Shown piece after piece: positions 2 through 45,008 of a stretch of 45,241 bases of DNA (its first letter is position 1; each line of letters begins with the position of its first letter). The DNA lies in NCBI GenBank assembly GCA_028697205.1, contig JAQVFO010000004.1, positions 1 to 45,241 on the forward strand, written 5' to 3'. Under the pieces are notes generated by a model that did not search any database, was not told the DNA's origin, and worked only from the letters and a program-made list of their open reading frames with translations. The stretch comes from Candidatus Altimarinota bacterium. GTDB taxonomy: Bacteria; Patescibacteriota; Gracilibacteria; BD1-5; UBA6164. Position numbers and translations under genes: made by a program.

Positions 2-2044
2 ACACAAAATGAATATACATACAGTATAACAAACCTAAAGACAGAATACCAAATCTGAGCAATACTAGAATGATGAAGTATACTATGATATAACAAACTA
101 ATAAACCAAGCCAATGCAGCCACACCATTAAAGAAAGCAACAGCTATGGTAGTATGAACATACAATGAAAAAATATTAAAAGTAAGTACATGAACAAGAG
201 ATTATATATTTGCAATACCAAGTATAATAAATAGTGATATAACAGATAATGATTTACTAAACATAATAAATAAGAAACAACTAGTATACAACAACTATAC
301 AAATCTACCAGATTCATACAAGAACCTATGATATAGTATGACATGATGATTTGATTTTATCCCAAATTGAAACATAATAGTATATAGTTGAAGTGTACAA
401 ACATTATCAGAATGATTAAATAAATTAGTATTTATAGATAATTTAAAATCAGTGTATAGTAATACAATACTACAATCAGAACCATTATATAATGATATAG
501 TAAATATAAATACAACAACAAATCAAGTAGAAGCATCAAACCTAGTAAATAATTATATAAAAAATAATGTATGATGATTATGATGAGTTACAGTATACAA
601 TGATTGTATATTGGATTGACAAACAATAATTCATTGAAGTACTATAACGGCATATAGTGAGAATAATATAATACAATCAGCACTATATTGATGTGTAGAT
701 AGAGAACAGCAAAGAACATGTACGAATTGAATATTAAGTTGAGATATTTCATATCAATATGCAAGTTGTGTAAAATGAACATTATCAAATTGTGTAGCAA
801 ATGCAAGTTATGTTTACAATACACATACATACTCAGTTCCACAAATAGATCATGGAAATACAGCAACAAATATAACATCAAGCCAAGTATCAGAGAATAA
901 TTGAATATTTACATATACTTTATCAAGTATAGAGTGTAATGATGGAACATATATAAACCAGATAGAAAATCCAACACCAATATTAGTAAGTTGTAATAGT
1001 TGATATATACAAAGTTGAAATAGTTGTGTAAGTTCTTATTTTGCTTGATCTTGAACAATTACTACTCCATGGACTAAATCTGATTGAAATGTGTTGCAAA
1101 ATTGTCAAGAATATAATCTACAAGCAACAACATTAAATTCTTGATCTCCAAGATGATCATGAACATGTTGAGACTGAACACAATGATGTTTAACGAGTTG
1201 AGTATATAGAATAGATCCAGATTTAACATGAACTGCATATTCTCCATTTAATGTTTATTGTGATATGACAAATACATGATGAGGTTGGACTTTGGTATGA
1301 GCATCTTGAGCAGGTGGTACTACGTCTGCACAATGAATGTGAAATAATAATGCTGTATGAACATTAACATCTCCTACTCAATGAACAAGTGCAAGACTTT
1401 CTCTTAATACTTGGAATGCAATATGAAATCTAACAAGATGGAAAAGAAATGATAATAGTGCTATATTTTATTCAAAACATGGGAGTAGTGCAGTAACGAT
1501 ATCAGGGTGGAATCCAAGTTATAATGCAGAACCACTTCCAAGTTGTTCAAGTTCGCCTACTTCTTGATTTGTAAATTGAAGAAGTTATCATTTTGCAGAT
1601 TGTTATAATGTAAATTCAAGTTATATATGATGGGGATGGAATTGAACTGGAGATGATTCTAGTGGTATAATGAATGCATCTAATTCTTCAGTGTGGGTTA
1701 ATACTGATTCAAGCATTGCATGAGGGAATTGTAGTGGAGGGTATAGTTTTAATGGATATTGTTGGAGAGTTGGAAATATAGGTGTTGCATCTTGTAATGT
1801 AGTTTGTTCTAGTGCAGGAGGTTCTTGTGTAGATAATTGGGGAAGTGTTATAAATACAAATTCAGTCTGTACACATTTTTTCCCAACTTATACAATATCA
1901 GTATCTGATATTCAAGAAAGACCTGCATATTATTGAACTAATTGTTGGTATACAACAACAAGGTCAGGACATTATGTAAACTCAAGTTATAATTGTGGAA
2001 CGAATAGTGGTGCTGGTTGACTTATATGTGCTTGTACAAAATAA
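2..2044 (+). CDS. Pilin-like surface protein with fibrinogen-like C-terminal domain (5' partial)
   Basis: The frame is open from the window edge to TAA at 2042-2044 when TGA is glycine; the start lies outside. Codons up to about 1030 align with codons of the pilin-like gene at 27116-29377 (position 8 matches 27479), including NEYTYSITN, KATAMVVGTYNEKILKVST and NITSSQVSENNG, so this is a paralogue and probably also begins with a type IV pilin helix. After a Cys-rich linker comes GVYRIDPDLTGTAYSPFNVY followed by CDMTNTGGGWTLV, the hallmark of fibrinogen-like domains, then a Trp/Cys-rich tail ending CACTK. Inferred role: exported adhesin or minor pilin carrying a binding domain. The domain match rests on motif recognition only. 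Confidence 0.8.
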
Positions 2045-19920: not shown

Positions 19921-20969
19921 ATGAACAAATCAAATAAAATATATATAGCAATTGCTATATCACTAATTAGTTTAATGTCTATTGCATCAGCAAATGCAAT
20001 GAATTGAAATTGACAGTGACTTTGATATTGATCTTGAAATGGAAGTTGACAACAAATCAATCAACAAAATCATACTCCTTGAGATTTAATTTCTACTATA
20101 GCAACTTGATCTCTTTCTGAACAAGAGAAACTAGATTTGTATTACCAATATAATGAGGAAAAAGTAGCAAGAGATTTATATACTTATTTTTATTCACTTT
20201 ATGGTGCACAGATATTTCAAAATATTGCTGAAGCAGAACAACAACATATGGATTCAGTAAAAGTACTTTTAGATAGATATAATCTAGAAATACCATCAAA
20301 TTACTGAGAATTAGAAACTACATATAATACATTGAAAATTGAGTGAGAAATATGACTTAAAGAAGCATATGAAGTATGAATAAAAGTTAAATACTTGATG
20401 TTACTGATATTGTTGATACAATTAAATCAACTGATAATGATGATATAAAAGTTGTTTTAATAAACATATGAGGAGCTTCATATAATCATTTAAGATGATT
20501 TGTAAAAGCACTTTTAAATAATTGATTTACAACAACTATAGATTATAGTGCTTATCTAAGCCAAGATGATTTAAATTCAAAATGATCTTTGCAATATAAA
20601 TTAGCTGAAGTATTAGAGTCTGAGTGAGTTGTTTTACCAGATCAATCAACAAGTAACTATGTAAAAAATAATTGTATATATAATTGCCAATATAATTATT
20701 GATTAACATGACAATATCAAAATACTTTAAATAAAAATAGAAATCAAGCTTTTAATCAAAACAAGAATTTATATAAATCTCAAATTCAAGTAAAATATTG
20801 AAATATGATAAAAAATATGAATCAAAATAAATTAAATGCACTTGATTGAAAGTTAGATATGGTAATAGAAAGTGTTGAAAATAATCAAACAATGACACAA
20901 ACTATGAAAGACAAGTATCTAAGTTTATATTATGCACTTAAGGAGTATTTAGGAGAGTTGGTGAGATAA
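19921..20969 (+). pseudogene. DUF2202 ferritin-like secreted protein, one-base frameshift
   Basis: The 5' frame has a signal peptide (MNKSNKIYIAIAISLISLMS), a Gly/Gln/Asn linker, then YNEEKVARDLYTYFYSLYG and NIAEAEQQHMDSVKVLLDRY, where the E and ExxH residues resemble a ferritin-like diiron half-site. After GIKV the frame runs out at TAA 20446-20448. The family sequence continues in the next frame: ILDVTDIVDTIKSTDNDDIK, INIGGASYNHLRGFVKALL and on to TAA at 20967-20969. Restoring one G after 20388 gives GIKVEILDVTDIVD in a single frame of about 349 residues. Either a sequencing or assembly error or a real, recent inactivation. DUF2202 function is not established. Confidence 0.8.
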
Positions 20970-20988: not shown

Positions 20989-21022
20989 AAAAAATCTAGC
21001 AAGAATTTTTGCTAGATTTTTT
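20989..21022 (+). terminator. Intrinsic terminator
   Basis: AAAAAATCTAGCAA (20989-21002) pairs with TTGCTAGATTTTTT (21009-21022) around a 6-base loop; it ends the DUF2202 transcript and marks the last clearly native sequence before the foreign island. Confidence 0.85.
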
Positions 21023-21057
21023 GTGTTCATAAATGATATTAATAACGTTTGCTTCTA

Positions 21058-21215
21058 TGAGATGTTTTGCGAAGTGAAACGGAGCAAAATTTGGGTGAGG
21101 GGCGAGCCGAGTCCCGAACCGTATATTCCTTGTTATACGCCCCGACGACTGAAAGGAGGAGAGCGCAGCGTGGTCGGAGCGAAGCAGAGAAGTCGGCACG
21201 GGGCACGTCTTTTTT
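21058..21215. repeat. GC-rich structured intergenic element (left of island)
   Basis: A block of roughly 155 bases with well over half G+C by eye in a genome of very low GC. It holds several potential stems: TTTTGC/GCAAAA around 21066-21088, GGGGCG/CGCCCC enclosing GTATA/TATAC around 21099-21145, and CCGAC/GTCGG pairs after that. Short frames inside it on either strand have no protein-like character. It ends in a T-run just before the membrane gene on the minus strand. It looks like a non-coding structured repeat imported with the neighbouring genes. Confidence 0.55.
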
Positions 21216-21231
21216 ATATGAAAAAATTATT

Positions 21232-21588
21232 TTATTGATTTATACTATCCGAGATTATTTGTTGAACATCAACCCCAAATATATTCAAAACCATAAATAT
21301 AACTTGTTTTACGAGCACGTAAATTAACATAAAAATTGCTATAATTATTAATTTTCTTATCCACGGCTTTTGTCTGGAAAGAATAGGAAATTTTTTTCGT
21401 AAAAAATCATTAATTTTTGTATAAAGTTTACCCTTCAGTAAAACAAGCAATAAAATAACAATCCCAATTAAAATAATAAAATATAATGGGATGCCTAATC
21501 TATAAAACAAGAATAGTAACAGGATGAGTGTTAGGATAGAAATATATTTTTTCCATCCCATTTTTTTATTTTCTGCCATATTATTCAT
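21232..21588 (-). CDS. Foreign small multi-pass membrane protein
   Basis: 118 residues with basic ends and hydrophobic helices (about residues 15-32, 34-51 and 75-95). No family recognised. Its five glycines (for example in MGWKK, RLGIP, LIGIV, LKGKL, IFGVD) are all GGN and there is no TGA in the frame, unlike its code-25 neighbours. An AAGGA sits about 12 bases upstream of the ATG, one of the few Shine-Dalgarno-like sites in the window. It lies between two GC-rich structured elements. Both facts suggest import from a standard-code donor. Confidence 0.65.
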   Translation of the reverse strand: MNNMAENKKMGWKKYISILTLILLLFLFYRLGIPLYFIILIGIVILLLVLLKGKLYTKINDFLRKKFPILSRQKPWIRKLIIIAIFMLIYVLVKQVIFMVLNIFGVDVQQIISDSINQ

Positions 21589-21797
21589 AAAAATATCATT
21601 CCTTTTATAATTTTTGCATTTTTAGTGCCCCATGCCGATTGCGCACAACGTTTCAGTATATCTGATGTCCTCCGTAGTTTTAGCGAAGGAGGATATGGGT
21701 CGAGCGAGGGCACGAGTGAGCCAGATATACTGTGTTGTGCGAGGGTGATTTTCTGTAGTGCTAACGGAAGAAAATCAAGTGCAACGACCCCGAAGCG
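21589..21797. repeat. GC-rich structured intergenic element (between island genes)
   Basis: No convincing gene. From about 21624 the DNA turns GC-rich and folds on itself: CGCACAAC...CAGTATATCTG (21639-21662) pairs with CAGATATACTG...GTTGTGCG (21722-21741) over about 19 bp with a small bulge; TCCTCC/GGAGGA make an inner stem; GATTTTCT/AGAAAATC make a third; GGGTCG near 21699 can pair with CGACCC near 21786. The layout resembles a multi-branched RNA or a cruciform repeat. An ORF of about 60 codons can be drawn on + but its composition is that of the structure, not a protein. Confidence 0.5.
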
Positions 21798-21872
21798 TAT
21801 TTTTCAATAATTTTTCATTCCTTATTATTTTGTTGAAGAATTTTATTATTTTATTGGAATTTTTATTTTTTC
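21798..21872 (+). repeat. Left inverted repeat flanking the OLD-like gene
   Basis: Three blocks, TATTTTTCAATAATTTTT (21798-21815), ATTTTGTTGAAGAATTT (21827-21843) and AATTTTTATTTTTTC (21858-21872), recur without mismatch and in the same order, reverse-complemented, at 24046-24121. Spacers are similar in length (11 and 14 here, 13 and 13 there) but differ in sequence. Confidence 0.75.
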
Positions 21873-21924
21873 GTTTTTCTTTTTCCAAGAGGGGTTAGGG
21901 GTGAATTGGAAAAAGAAAAACACC

Positions 21925-23934
21925 TTATTCGCTTTCTTCCGAACTTGGATTTATAATTTCTCTAATTTTATTAAAAATATCTTCAAAAGTATTAAAGTCA
22001 AAATCTTCTATAAACCCACTATCTGTCTCTATTAACTGTGCAAAATCTGATTTTGAAAGGGCTACTGATGTACTTTGTTCCAAGTCTTCTTTTTTGTACA
22101 CCTTCTTATCAATAACACCATTAATGTCTACCTTATTCTGAATTTGTTCAATTTTTGTCTGATAATTTCCCTCTGTGCTATTTCCACTTTTATAAAATTC
22201 ACTTCCCAGAAATAGCCTTCTTCCCTCTAAATTTTCTTTTTTTAAAATACTTTTAGGGTAATAGTGTTCTATTGATATTTTATCACCATAAAACTCTCCA
22301 TTTTTTAATGGTATACAAAAAGCAAAAACATTATTTCCATATTTCTTAAATGATTGATTATCTTTTTCAATATCGTTAATTATCTCTGGAACATCTCTAT
22401 CAAAAATTCCGATAATTTCCCTTGATTGAGGTACTTTGGAGAGTTGTTCAAGAAGCTTTTTAAGGTGTGAATCACTCCAATCCTCAGTTATTTTATAAAA
22501 ATCAACATCTAAATTAGTAATATTCAATTTTTCTTTTGCCTTTTCAATATGCTGTCTATCTGTTTTCCCCTCCGTAATTATCAGAGGTTTTGAACCTTCT
22601 TTTATTTTTGTTTCCAATAATTCATACTTTTCTTTAAATCTCTCGTTTTCTCCAACCATCATTTCATAAACTTCTTTATATAAGTCGTTGGTTGTGGGAT
22701 CAGTCGAAATACCAAGATTATCTAAATCTATTATTTTTGATCTTTCTTGCAATTCTTCAGCCAATCCCATGCTCAAAAATGGAGAGTGAGAACTCACTAT
22801 AAATTGCACATTTTTAAATAGTTTAAAAAGTTTTGGCAAAACTTCTTTTTGTAATTTTATATGGAGATGTTTATCGACTTCATCAATGAGAACAATTCCC
22901 GTGATTTCATCTAACAAAATATTATTCTTATTAGTGTCAGCTTGCCTTAGAAGTTCTCAAAAAACACAAAGCAACGAGGCTTCACCAGAAGATAGATTGA
23001 ATATTGTAGGATATATCTGAAGTCCATCTTCAGCATTTACAATTTGAACTCTTGTCCCACCTAAATTACGTTCTCCTATACCAAATCTTGATGTATTAAA
23101 ACCTTTTGATTTTAAAATTTCTGTAATAATAAAGTTGGTTTTTTCTCTTATGTGAGATTTCAGATGAATGTTTATCTGTATAATGCTATTTATTAAATTA
23201 GATAGTTGATTCTTTTGAATAGGTTCTTGAATGTTTATACTTTCCAAACTTTTCTCAATATCTTCAGTTTTTACATTTAAATACTGGTTATCCAGTACAA
23301 GATCCATAATCCAATTCGCTAGTTGAGGTAATCCAGACAATACTTCAATAGGATTTGGCAAATATCCTGAAAAACCTGATTCTTTTTTAAAATTCAATTT
23401 TATCTTGTAAGGATCGTTTAAATATCCAGGTTGTTCATATCTGTATGCTGGAAAATATGTTATCAAATTATTTCTGAATATTTTTTCAGCCTTTTCTTTA
23501 TTGAAATTAGATGAAACTTTTTTGATATAATTTTCATTTTTTAGATCGTTTTGAACTTGATTAAAAGGAATTTTTTCATCAATAGAAATTGCATTATTAT
23601 ATTCCTCTTCTGTGCAGTTATTTCTAATATCAAGATAGTCAAAAGTTTCTTCACCTAAGTTGAATCTAAGATATACAAATGAGGGCTTGCTCTTATCTAA
23701 ATTGTGAATAGCAGAAGACACTCTATAAAATTTATTTTCTTTCCCTTCATATTCATTTTGAAAATGAGGTCTCGCTATCTCATGAAAAGCATCTACAAGA
23801 TGAGAAAGTATTGTTGTTTTCCCTTTTCCATTTACAGCAGAAAGAACTGAAATTTCATTTTCATAAAAATCTAACTCCAATTTATCAAATGGAGCTCTGT
23901 TTATAAAAATTGCTTTTTGTAGATATATTTTCAT
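21925..23934 (-). CDS. OLD-like ATP-dependent nuclease (AAA ATPase + TOPRIM)
   Basis: 669 residues from ATG at 23934 when one in-frame TGA (22957-22959, codon 326) is read as glycine. ATPase half: Walker A SAVNGKGKTT (32-41), signature LSSGEASLL (314-322), Walker B GIVLIDEVDKHLH (346-358), then FIVSSHSPF. C-terminal TOPRIM: IITEGKTD with E455, and IFDRD with D512 and D514 as metal ligands. This is the domain order of OLD-family nucleases, several of which (including GajA of Gabija) act in phage defence; no GajB-like helicase is adjacent. By my count glycine is about 31 GGN to one TGA, opposite to the host genes, so it was imported from a standard-code donor. TGA falls in VFGELLRQ just after the signature, a place where related ATPases have Gly. 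Confidence 0.85.
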
Positions 23935-24238
23935 AGTCTGTTTCAATAGATTGTAAATATTGTATCTGTTTTCCCTAAATTTTAAATGTCATTTTTTGTG
24001 GAGGAACGAAACAAAAAATATCTGATTATCCCCTCATAAAAATTAGAAAAAATAAAAATTTTATTCCTTTTTTAAATTCTTCAACAAAATTCCTTATTTG
24101 AGAAAAAATTATTGAAAAATATGTCGCACAACTACTCTCTATCAGAAATATAAATTTGATTTAATACTTAAAAGTAATAATATACGAAATATTTCCTATA
24201 GAGAAATAACTAAAAATATTATAATTAAAATCAATAAT
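23935..24238. other. Island right border, non-coding
   Basis: No gene seen. It contains a hairpin TTTTTTGT (23992-23999) with ACAAAAAA (24011-24018) around GGAGGAACG, similar in style to the structured blocks to the left, then the right inverted repeat (24046-24121) and TGTCGCACAAC, which echoes the CGCACAAC of the left block. From about 24135 the sequence returns to plain AT-rich leader before the recombinase. Confidence 0.5.
24046..24121 (-). repeat. Right inverted repeat flanking the OLD-like gene
   Basis: GAAAAAATAAAAATT (24046-24060), AAATTCTTCAACAAAAT (24074-24090) and AAAAATTATTGAAAAATA (24104-24121) are exact reverse complements of the three blocks at 21798-21872. Together the two copies bracket the nuclease gene with its full upstream region. 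Confidence 0.75.
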
Positions 24239-25015
24239 ATGCAAAACTATTTACTTGACCTGGAAAGAGAATTAAAATACAGAAATTATTCACCTAGAAC
24301 TATTGAAGTTTATATAAATTGTACAGAGTATTTTCTCAAATATATAAAAAATGACCTATCAAAAATTTCAAAAGAAACTATAATAGATTTTACTATTCAT
24401 TTACAAACAAAAAATAAAGCTCCAAAGACTATAAATCTCTATAAAGATGCAATTAAATTTTTCTTAAAAGAGGTATTAAAACTAAATCTGGATTTTGAAA
24501 TAAAGCTATCAAAAGAAGCAAAAAAGCTACCAGTAGTCTTATCAAAAGAAGAAATACAAAAAATTCTAGAAAATACAAATAATCCTAAACATAAATTACT
24601 TTTATCACTTTCTTATGCTTCCTGACTCAGAGTAAGTGAGATAATTAATCTAAAAGTTTGAGATATTAACTTAGAAGAACTTACAATTCATATTAAATGA
24701 GCTAAATGAAATAAAGATAGAATTACAGTTTTTTCTGAAAAACTTAAAAATGATTATCTTATAGAAAGTGAGAGATGATGAAAAATTACAGAGAGAACAG
24801 CTCAAATTATTTTTAAAAATGCTTTACAAAAAGCTTGAATAAAAAAAGAAGCAAGTTTTCATAGTTTGAGACATAGCTTTGCTACACATTTGCTTGAAAA
24901 TGGAACAGATATTAGATATATCCAAGAGCTTCTTTGACATGCTAGTATCAAAACAACGCAAATTTACACAAAGGTTGTGAATCCAAATTTAAAAAATATT
25001 ATTAGCCCTTTATAA
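24239..25015 (+). CDS. Tyrosine recombinase (XerC/D-like integrase)
   Basis: 258 residues. A SAM-like core-binding domain at the start ([20 protein letters not shown]) is followed by a catalytic domain with [17 protein letters not shown] (first Arg), KGAKGNKDRIT (beta-hairpin Lys), [16 protein letters not shown] (HxLR), [17 protein letters not shown] (H and the nucleophile Tyr). All catalytic residues R, K, H, R, H, Y are visible. At 258 residues it is shorter than XerC/XerD (about 300), as in archaeal XerA-like enzymes. Eight glycines are TGA and one GGA, so unlike the island beside it this gene is native in code use. It starts 118 bp after the right inverted repeat. It could be the cell's dimer-resolution recombinase or the agent that integrated the island. 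Confidence 0.92.
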
Positions 25016-27027: not shown

Positions 27028-27065
27028 TATATATAGTTTCTTCGTCAACTTAAAATATTTGCAAG

Positions 27066-27105
27066 ATAACTAGAATTAAATATAATTTAAACTAGTTATT
27101 TTTTT
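27066..27105 (+). terminator. Intrinsic terminator
   Basis: ATAACTAG (27066-27073) pairs with CTAGTTAT (27092-27099) around an 18-base AT-rich loop, followed by a T-run to 27105. It lies 11 bp before the next start codon. Confidence 0.65.
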
Positions 27106-27115
27106 ATAAAAAAAT

Positions 27116-29377
27116 ATGCCAAAATGAAATAAAATCAAAAATGAAGAACTTATAAAAAAACAAAAAAAGAAAAAATGATTTACATTGGTTGAGTTAATCG
27201 TAGTTATTACCATTATAGCAATTTTGTGAACGATTGCATTTATATCAATTAATACATATACTATACATGCAAGAAATTGAGTAAGAATAGCAGATTTAAA
27301 TAATATAAAAAAAAGCTTAGAACTATTTATAGTTGAAAAAGGATTTTACCCAACTCCTGATTGATTAGTAAGTATAACTTATAGTTGAGCTACTGCATGG
27401 ACTCAGTGAACAATATGAGATACTGTTATAAGAAATCTTCAAAAATTAAATAAAAAACCAACAGATCCATTAACATGAAATGAATATACATATAGTATAA
27501 CAAACTTGAAGAGTGAATATCAACTTTGAACCATATATGAATGATGAGTATCTATATGATATACTCCAATAATTACAGAAAAAGCAAATGCAGCTTGAGA
27601 AAAGAAAGCTCTTGCTATGGTTATATGAACATATAATGAAAAAATCCTAAAAGTGAGTACTTGAAGTATTGATTATATATTAGCTGTTCCAAGTATAATA
27701 AATACAAATTTATATGATACAGATTTATTAAGTATCATAAACAATAAGAGTTTATCATATGATAAGTATTCAAATTTACCATCAAGTTATGAAAACAATT
27801 GATATACTATGACTTGATGATTTGATTTTGTTCCGTGATGAGATATAGTTGTGTATAGTTGAAGTACTCATAACTTAATTGAAAATAATGAAAAACTTGT
27901 ATTTATAGATAATCTAAAAAATGTATATTATGGGACTATATTGTGAACAAATGGAAATTATAGTGATATAACTTCGCTTGATACTGTTAATAATCAATGA
28001 TGATGAATTGAGTTAGCAAATAGTTATTTAAAAAATGATATATGATGAATTTGATGATGAATAAATCAACTTTATTTAGTAACAAATGATTGTACATTAG
28101 ATTGAAAAACTATATATGATTGACAAACAATTACAGCATATAGTGAAAATAATATCTGAGCACTTGAACCATATGAATGTGCAGATAGACAAACAACAAG
28201 AACATGTAATAATAGGACATTAAGCTGAGATATAAATTATCAATATACAAGTTGTGTTAAATGAACACCAGCGAATTGTTCAGCAAGTTGAAGTTACTCA
28301 TATAATTCACATACATATTCAATTCCAGCAGTAAATCACTGAGAACAAGCAATAAATATAACATCAAGCAGTGTAACAGAAAATAATTGAACATTTACAT
28401 ATACACTTACAAGTATAGATTGTAATGATGGAGGTTTAATAAATCCAAATGAAAATGTAACTCCAACAGTTGTAAGTTGTGATACAAATTATCATATAAG
28501 TGGAAATAGTTGTGTATTGGATACATATACAGTAAGTTGAAGCTTCTGAATAAATGCTAATTGAGCAACAATAAATGTGTGTGGAACAAATGTAACAGCA
28601 GATGCAAGTTGATGATTTTCAACTACAAGAAACTATGGATCAGTATGTAACGATATAACAGCAGCAAGAAGTTGATATACATGTACAACAACAATAAATT
28701 GACCAACAAGTTTAATATCTAATGTAACAAATATAGCTTGAAGCTGTAGTACAAACTTTACATGTTGAAATAGTATATCTTATGGTTGATATACATATAC
28801 TACAAAGACTTGATTAGATGGGAAATGTTGGACAACAACAAATATGAAACATTGATCTATGTTAGCAAATGGAGCATATCCATCAAGTATAAATACTATT
28901 GAAAAATGGTGTTATAATAATACTGCAAGTTATTGTAATACATACTGATGATTATATACTTGGTATGAGGCAATGGGATTACCTCAAAATTCATCATTAA
29001 CAACAGAAGATACAACTAAATCTGTTTGTTGAATTATGTGAGATGGGTGGCATCTACCTACAGATGCACAATTCTATAGTTTAGAAAATGCTTCAAAAAC
29101 AGCATGACAAACTTGTACATCATCAAGAACTTCATGGGAATGTAATTGAGCATGATGGATTTGAAATAAAGATAATTGAGTATTTACAGTATTAGGGGGA
29201 CATTTTTATTTATGAAGTACCTATCCATTAGATTCTACTTGATATTGGTGGTCTTCTACTCAAATCTCTTCAGCTAATGCATGGTATAGGTTAATGATGA
29301 ATACACAATCAACAATAAACCGTAGTGATGAAGTTAAAGCACAGTATTGATTTAGTATTGTATGTACAAGAAATTAA
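27116..29377 (+). CDS. Large pilin-like surface protein with FISUMP C-terminal domain
   Basis: 753 residues. The N-terminus is a type IV pilin signal: basic leader MPKGNKIKNEELIKKQKKKK, processing site G21|F22, then FTLVELIVVITIIAIL with Glu at +5. A middle region to about residue 465 (for example ATAWTQGTIGD, SIDYILAVPSI, CVKGTPANCSAS) is shared with the gene at position 2. The end is a Fib_succ_major (FISUMP) domain: DGKCWTTTNMKHG, GGLYTWYEAMG, GDGWHLPTDAQFYSLENA, GYWWSSTQISSANAWYRLMM, FSIVCTRN. Inferred role: minor pilin or pseudopilin carrying an adhesive or carbohydrate-binding tip. Many TGA codons occur, including at conserved domain glycines. Confidence 0.85.
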
Positions 29378-44388: not shown

Positions 44389-44495
44389 AAAAAGTATTAA
44401 AGTTTTAACTTTAATACTTTTTTTATTTAAATTAATTAGTGACATCAAGTGTAAGCAAGTTTTATAACTCAAGTTGCAGTAGCCACACCTCAAGT
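44369..44495. repeat. 127-bp exact direct repeat, first copy
   Basis: Identical to 45115-45241. It covers the last codons of the pyruvyl transferase gene, the terminator and the 3' end of the pilin gene. The base before the repeat differs (C at 44368, A at 45114). Confidence 0.9.
44387..44428. terminator. Bidirectional terminator
   Basis: AAAAAAAGTATTAAAGTT (44387-44404) pairs with AACTTTAATACTTTTTTT (44407-44424), 18 bp, between the convergent pyruvyl transferase and pilin genes. A second copy lies at 45133-45170. Confidence 0.85.
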
Positions 44496-45008
44496 TATAA
44501 GACGACATCAGCTTGATGTAATTGCTGCTGCTCTACTTGTATTATTAGCATCAATATCAATTCAAACTTCAAATCTTGTAGGATCATTTCAACCATCTCA
44601 AGCTCATCTACTAGTTTTATTTCAATCATTTTCAAATCAAGTAGATAATTCATATTCTCAATAAAGAATTCAAGTATTGTCTGGTCAAGTTACATAAATA
44701 TAATCACAAGCAGATCCATTACATTGTTGAGTAGATTTAGGATCAGAAGGGATTTTTTCCATATATGTTAATACATTTATAGTTGCTCAAGTCCAGAACT
44801 GATTACTATGTGGATATTCAGAAGTATCTTGATAAACTTGTTCTATAGCAGATTGCATAGCTTTAACATCATTAATTCTAACAGCATCTCTTCATTTTTG
44901 TATTTGAGCAGTATAGATAGCAGTAGCTCAAACAGCAAGGATTCAAATAATAGTAATTACAACTAGTAATTCTATAAGAGTAAAGGCTTTTTTTGATAAA
45001 CTTTTCAT
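44436..45008 (-). CDS. Type IV pilin
   Basis: 190 residues. Short basic leader MKSLSKKA, processing site A8|F9, then FTLIELLVVITIIGILAVGA with Glu at +5, the type IV pilin N-methylation signal and assembly helix. The globular part has DVKAMQSAIEQVYQDTSEYP, YMEKIPSDPKS, a disulfide pair candidate CNGSACDYIY, and ends RLITGGVATATGVIKLAYTG plus CH. This is the size of a major pilin or type II pseudopilin. A perfect TATAAT lies 36 bases upstream. The two glycines of the helix in IIGIL and AVGA are TGA codons. Confidence 0.92.

Follow-up and report, generated by a model that had tools for sequence, protein, structure and literature searches.

A family of modular pilin genes with a shared body and differing C-terminal tips in a Candidatus Altimarinota bacterium

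We found that the genome of a Candidatus Altimarinota bacterium holds about 18 genes of one modular pilin family, if each gene tail pairs with one head. The encoded proteins consist of a carrier, made up of a type IV pilin head and a body of ~300 residues, and of a C-terminal tip that varies between copies. Family members change from shared to unrelated sequence at sharp junctions, their bodies and tips have discordant histories, and orthologous loci in related genomes carry different tips. We consider it probable that these genes form a repertoire of modular minor pilins in which the carrier is kept alike by conversion and the tips, presumably cell-binding, are replaced as modules. Judging from the domain types and from the case of Saccharibacteria, the tips are presumably adhesive and may decide host choice; location on the filament and current exchange would be further features of this repertoire. 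The source genome (G000; 1.27 Mb, 19 contigs, 99.1% complete) was compared with relatives including G002, from the same genus, and G021, which is assembled as one contig. The stretch of DNA analysed first, hereafter the window, comprises the initial 45,241 of the 89,462 bases of contig C13. Its reading frames are open only under code 25 (TGA = Gly), and reading TGA as glycine is also typical of Gracilibacteria and Absconditabacteria. The organism is a tiny, probably host-dependent bacterium.

Two family members, genes A and B, lie on the + strand of the window. Gene A (positions 2–2044, 680 aa under code 25) lacks its 5′ end at the contig break, its start lying on another contig, and comprises body, a shared Cys module and a fibrinogen-like tip. 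It retains a portion of the shared pilin body (2–580, profile positions 119–311), followed by the second shared module (602–1030), which is common to gene B and to the pilin at C14:37761 of the same genome, and by a fibrinogen-like YCDxxxxGGGW segment (1178–1306; Fibrinogen_C, NF040941). Gene B (27116–29377, 753 aa) is complete. It consists of the pilin head and shared body (27116–28048, profile positions 1–311), the second shared module as in A (28070–28516) and a FISUMP tip (28820–29365). Its class III (N_methyl) signal, with the leader ...KKKKG/FTLVEL, spans 27164–27241 and scores 35.7 bits against a cut-off of 21.2, so that the complete type IV pilin signal claimed for this gene in a sequence-only reading is borne out.

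The same reading had aligned the first part of A with B. Positions 2–1030 of A indeed align with 27472–28516 of B (71.05% identity over 1064 columns, blastn), although these units are nucleotides and not codons as had been written, and the two proteins are 59.5% identical over 358 residues. The similarity is not confined to low-complexity segments, the outcome that would have spoken against a common scaffold, since the shared region has conserved columns. The C-termini, which had been called unrelated, match different domain models above cut-off. The end of A matches Fibrinogen_C at 26.3 bits (cut-off 22), covering model positions 10–49 of 221 only, and the NCBIfam model GGGWT_bact at 49.7 (cut-off 30), and the end of B matches Fib_succ_major at 41.3 (cut-off 33.9) and TIGR02145 at 60 (cut-off 41.65). 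The fibrinogen-like match of A spans only the first ~45 residues of a fold that measures ~220 residues in the full fibrinogen-related (FReD) lectin form, and among solved structures the tip weakly matches techylectin-5A and FIBCD1. AlphaFold models were too poor for use (mean pLDDT 31.4 and 28.5). With lengths of 680 and 753 aa, neither protein deserves the word 'giant' used earlier. The first 127 nt of A are identical to a contig-internal copy, C3:34970, and thus the head that belongs to A is not assignable.

Gene B proved to be one of many. Its residues 1–482 match 39 places in the source genome, about 20 of them strongly, and the family of about 18 genes estimated from them goes far beyond the two members reported at first. 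Head and body occur together in the contig-internal copies B, C3:34970, C4:1555, C14:10495, C11:90875, C8:15014, C3:316952 and C14:56372. The C3:316952 copy is more distant, and C14:56372–57223 (L042) is interrupted by TAA and may be a pseudogene or else serve as a silent donor. The contig ends hold nine further heads and eight tails. One of the tails, on C18, has no body left; its FISUMP tip and its linker place it in the family. The end of contig C5 falls within the 5′ block of a further family head. The N_methyl cut-off was exceeded by all seven unbroken contig-internal copies, and the pilin motif is present in all nine head fragments at contig ends. In total, 18 of the 38 contig ends lie inside family copies, the first base of the window included. 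Exact 127-mers at several of these ends recur in other copies, and this probably caused the assembly to break at family genes. Such breaks conceal the repertoire.

Copies were also present in relatives, as the earlier reading had suggested checking. The body of B was matched at E 1e-20 or better in 29 of 40 genomes, the source genome included, and was without a match at this threshold in the other 11. With partial copies counted, the matches numbered 30 in G002, 24 in the single contig of G021, 21 in the source genome and 15 in G008. Across the class, nine of 145 genomes had a match at 1e-30, all from the same family or order, and 136 had none at that threshold. The closest body belongs to a named relative, the Candidatus Gracilibacteria MAG JAAXWG01.

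The 3′ end is known for 15 family genes of the source genome. Six of these have a FISUMP tip, called by Pfam in B and C18:66661 and by a custom profile in C3:34970, C4:3, C15:80344 and C16:21455. LamG tips were found in three (C4:1555, C5:3 and C11:94845), and four tips occur once each: leucine-rich repeats (LRR, C14:10495), a beta-helix (C3:3), a regulator propeller (Reg_prop, C3:316952) and the fibrinogen-like tip of A. The tip of C11:90875 matches no assigned domain, and C8:15014 has almost no tip. Among 20 copies scanned in G021, we detected RCC1 (3), SBBP (2), regulator propeller, LamG, fibrinogen-like and other tips, together with one FISUMP tip above cut-off, two weak ones and a weak Lcl_C match. 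The extra C-terminal modules FISUMP, LamG, LRR, beta-helix, Reg_prop and fibrinogen-like are not specific to pilus biology, as is required of modular type IV pilins.

Putative machinery for a pilus is encoded in the source genome, with seven T2SSE matches over cut-off and one Peptidase_A24, and PF06750, the N-terminal prepilin-peptidase domain, was not found there. Two short GspG-like pilins lie side by side on the − strand (window 44436–45008 and C13:45182–45742) and are candidates for ordinary filament subunits. The heads of the modular proteins could also act as an export or membrane anchor only, as in a T2SS-like pseudopilin or surface protein, with tips that serve as nutrient-binding or enzyme domains for feeding. 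The head resembles GspG (TIGR01710, 37.5 bits, below the cut-off of 88.85), LamG, beta-helix and pullulanase-X25-like tips occur in enzymes too (e.g. arabinanase), and the best sequence matches among solved structures, a Geobacter pilin and other pilins, cover the N-terminal helix region only. However, this helix matches filament-building pilins, and most folds of the LRR, RCC1, propeller and fibrinogen-like kinds serve in binding. Furthermore, adhesive modular pilins exist, namely PilX2 of TM7x and PilB and PilC of Streptococcus sanguinis (PMC12206443, PMC8179133, PMC9934059). We therefore regard a pure anchor as unlikely.

Under the preferred reading of a minor pilin repertoire, the constant carrier has a prepilin signal, a pilin helix and a body of ~300 residues, often behind a shared 5′ block, and continues into a C-terminal module that can be exchanged. 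The prepilin peptidase of the genome would cleave the carrier, which would then be assembled into a type IV filament through its helix, and the tip would be displayed at the end of the filament or close to it and bind ligands, probably glycans or proteins of another cell. Homologous recombination between paralogues would keep the carriers alike within a genome, and older tips would be replaced as modules, mostly at the body end and at the end of an EGF-like linker. One carrier would thereby be available with a permanent choice of tips.

The histories of bodies and tips were compared in trees. In a body tree of 47 rows, the genome label changes eight times, compared with a minimum of four and a shuffled mean of 22 (0 of 200 shuffles as low). 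Bodies thus sort by genome although the source genome and G002 share a genus, with the exception of one G010 body inside the source-genome clade. In the FISUMP tip tree (22 rows), the eight label changes are close to the shuffled mean of 8.2, and 116 of 200 shuffles were as low. For the same 19 proteins, the body tree has two changes (0 of 200 as low) and the tip tree five (57 of 200). In addition, the AU test rejects a single clade for four source-genome tips (p 3.4e-6), for six (7e-75) and for 13 G002 tips (8e-58). Since bodies sort by genome and tips interleave, the tips are older than the present carriers.

Alignments within genomes show where the two parts meet. The junction set consists of 26 within-genome alignments of at least 88% identity that reach the body end, 24 of them from the source genome (one pair entered twice) and one each from G002 and G021. 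Most end at −34 to +6 or at +161 to +192 nt relative to the body end, the latter being the end of the EGF-like linker. As exceptions, two alignments of A fall ~190 nt short of the body end, that of the G021 pair ends at about +30, and two further alignments continue into related tips. The C5 and C3:3 copies are 99.8% identical over 400 nt and then pass into LamG and beta-helix, respectively, and C16 and C11:94845 are 95.9% identical up to the linker end and then carry a FISUMP-type and a LamG tip. These junctions are the places at which tips would have been replaced, as far as the sequences tell. A chimerisation of near-identical genes by the assembler would agree with the 18 of 38 contig ends that lie in family copies, but the same pattern appears in the contig-internal C3:34970 and C4:1555, which are 95.7% identical over 869 nt and then continue as FISUMP-type and LamG. 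It also appears in the one-contig G021, where copies 205085 and 227604 are 92.9% identical over 845 nt with unrelated tips; body identity with unrelated tips is therefore not an assembly effect, and we give an artefact hardly any weight.

To compare loci between genomes, we used reciprocal best flanking genes within 8 kb, over the available sequence stretches rather than whole genomes, and counted pairs with at least two shared genes on the same side, leaving out one-gene pairs. Nine pairs met this rule, and four were dropped: three pairs with short, ordinary, tipless pilins and one with C11:94848, a tandem neighbour of a counted locus. Of the five tip-bearing pairs retained, four differ in tip. 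C11:90878 and G021 1014412 share 10 genes on both flanks, and their bodies are 47% identical and their tips unrelated. C3:3 and G002 C61:36852 share seven genes and have a beta-helix and a FISUMP-type tip, respectively; B and G002 C19:6953 share two genes and have only a 69-residue linker in common; and G002 C22:5715 and G021 548418 share two genes and carry unrelated tips. At the fifth pair, C3:316955 and G002 C83:82563 (three genes shared), the propeller tip is kept (63.6% over 332 residues; body 52.6%). This locus serves as an internal control because it is distant and not homogenised. G021 1154229 (LamG) and G010 C8:121264 (beta-helix) had been linked with B by a looser comparison of flanks and were not counted, as each pair has at most one same-side gene under the stricter rule.

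Similar bodies with dissimilar ends might also result if whole genes had been duplicated recently and their tips had then diverged fast through diversifying selection, with no recombination. Simple duplicates do exist, such as G021 819601 and 906766 (body 78%, tip 83%), and likewise G002 C98:17585 and C3:3861, which have related tips. As a general explanation, however, duplication is improbable in view of the different tip folds on bodies that are 95–99% identical, of the interleaving of tips between genomes in proteins whose bodies do not interleave, and of the PHI and tract tests. In the PHI test on complete bodies, values as low as those observed occurred in 0 of 1000 permutations for the source genome (6 rows), 0 of 500 for G002 (22 rows) and 4 of 500 for G021 (9 rows). 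A PHI run on positions 119–313 with nine rows (222 of 1000 as low) was set aside because it included the misassigned body of C11:94845. Runs of identity at third codon positions were significant after Bonferroni correction in four of 15 complete contig-internal pairs of the source genome and in three of 28 pairs of eight partial copies. We preferred third positions for this genome because its all-sites counts (14 of 28 and 5 of 15) may include conservation gradients. The all-sites tract test detected two of 231 pairs in G002 and none of 105 in G021. Gene conversion is thus firm in the source genome, moderate in G002 and weak in G021. The earlier proposal of a scaffold with exchangeable C-termini, diversified by recombination, accordingly gains support from the sharp junctions, the discordant trees, the tip differences at shared loci and the conversion tracts of the source genome.

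A dedicated tip diversifier, either a diversity-generating retroelement or a shufflon-type invertase, was also considered. FISUMP-like folds are known targets of diversity-generating retroelements, and a Xer-type tyrosine recombinase is encoded 2 kb upstream of B. Against this, the sole RVT_1 match in the source genome is a Drt4-like defence protein and G021, with its 24 family matches, has none; the copies are dispersed complete genes and not adjacent invertible segments; and the recombinase near B resembles an ordinary XerA at cut-off. Such a device is very improbable here. The reverse transcriptase of the source genome (C11:14129–14545, L076) was classed by PADLOC with the Drt4 defence proteins (412.9 bits), and RVT_1 searches of G021, G008 and G020 found none. 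Five RVT_1 pieces were seen in contigs C24, C27 and C82 of G002, which has the most family matches. The XerA-like gene lies at window 24098–25015 on the + strand (NF040815, at cut-off), and an AAA ATPase at 21925–23946 on the − strand resembles PtuA and RT-Toprim defence proteins. Elsewhere in the window, the neighbouring + strand frames 19921–20448 and 20589–20969 resemble, by eye, one gene split by a frameshift, and 21020–21900 holds overlapping odd Arg/Ser-rich frames on both strands, unlike the remainder of the window; an Rfam search of that stretch gave no match.

Many copies are preceded by a shared 5′ block. A start and a signal of its own were present in each of the 15 heads examined, in most of them together with this block, and eleven aligned heads share GTCAA..TA.AA upstream of the start. 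In B, the block (27044–27115, + strand) contains GTCAAYYTAAAA, TTGC and an imperfect palindrome. In nine heads of the source genome a 36-bp palindrome follows GTCAA..TA.AA (e.g. L038:1918–1953, L044:499–534 and L040:4630–4665); copies differ from one another on both arms, with complementarity kept, at seven of its 16 pair positions (ungapped 36-mers), and it overlaps a possible TTGCAA-16-TATAAT promoter. The RNA folds better than shuffled sequences in five of six blocks tested (z −2.6 to −8.4), and B is weak (z −1.5). An alignment-based RNA fold of the block returned no pairs, as the arms are displaced in the automatic alignment. C10, C11:1 and C4:1555, the second gene of a tandem, lack the block. 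Long palindromes as a feature of the whole family were rejected: they occur at heads versus other genes in 9/19 versus 6/244 cases in the source genome, 5/32 versus 10/155 in G002 and 0/18 versus 9/165 in G021. As to the role of the block, an operator that overlies a promoter, a leader hairpin and a travelling terminator are all conceivable.

A further, tentative idea, which we hold to be possible but doubtful, is that the family sustains ongoing adhesin variation and needs no dedicated recombinase. The near-identical carriers would then act as long homology arms for RecA-type exchange between dispersed copies, also with DNA taken up from neighbours, which would continually move tips on and off filaments and so alter the hosts that are gripped; the palindromic 5′ block, carried along with many copies, may limit or coordinate the choice of the tip that is produced. 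The family resembles a collection of grappling hooks that can be exchanged. Partner choice and attachment in Patescibacteria are largely open questions, for which the tip repertoire is a concrete and testable candidate for host range, and it comes with evidence on how tips are maintained and changed.

Among known systems, the pilE/pilS loci of Neisseria vary one expressed pilin by gene conversion from silent partial copies that lack a start or promoter. Both systems have conversion between dispersed pilin copies, but here the copies are complete genes, the constant part is converted and whole tip folds differ. TpsA-type proteins exchange domains at the 3′ end behind a conserved long N-terminus; they likewise have an exchangeable 3′ module, but belong to an unrelated protein family with an unrelated function. 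Our searches, which covered open papers, brought up no description of dispersed family members that have homogenised carriers but swapped tips, and no paper in them contained both FISUMP and pilin. In the PilV shufflon of IncI plasmids, a variable C-terminal adhesin selects the partner cell (PMC9045228). A constant pilin part joined to a variable C-terminal part is common to both; the shufflon as outlined in that source, however, is a single gene in which neighbouring segments with crossover sites are inverted by their own Rci-type recombinase, whereas here complete genes, spread over many contigs of the source genome and around G021, would exchange by homologous recombination. Vampirococcus, a predator that uses code 25, is described as rich in pilus proteins (PMC8080830). 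PilX2 of TM7x (Saccharibacteria) is a minor pilin with an RCC1 propeller required for normal host binding (PMC12206443); it resembles the present proteins as a beta-propeller-tipped minor pilin of an episymbiotic bacterium with a small genome, and G021 has three RCC1 tips, but there it is one gene, and the sections of that paper used here report no swapped-tip family. A close architecture is that of the modular type IV pilins of S. sanguinis, PilB with a vWA and PilC with a lectin module, both adhesive binding modules (PMC8179133, PMC9934059). PMC8179133 also lists LamG (PF13385) among pilin modules and a Gracilibacteria protein among 15 example architectures. These pilins and ours share a class III signal, a pilin module and an extra C-terminal module, which is a binding module in S. 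sanguinis; as presented in those sources they are single genes and a catalogue of architectures, whereas here ~18 paralogues share a converted long body, and their tips would be exchanged chiefly at two junctions. Extra binding modules on pilins are thus known, and the dispersed family with tip swapping looks like a new form of such pilins.
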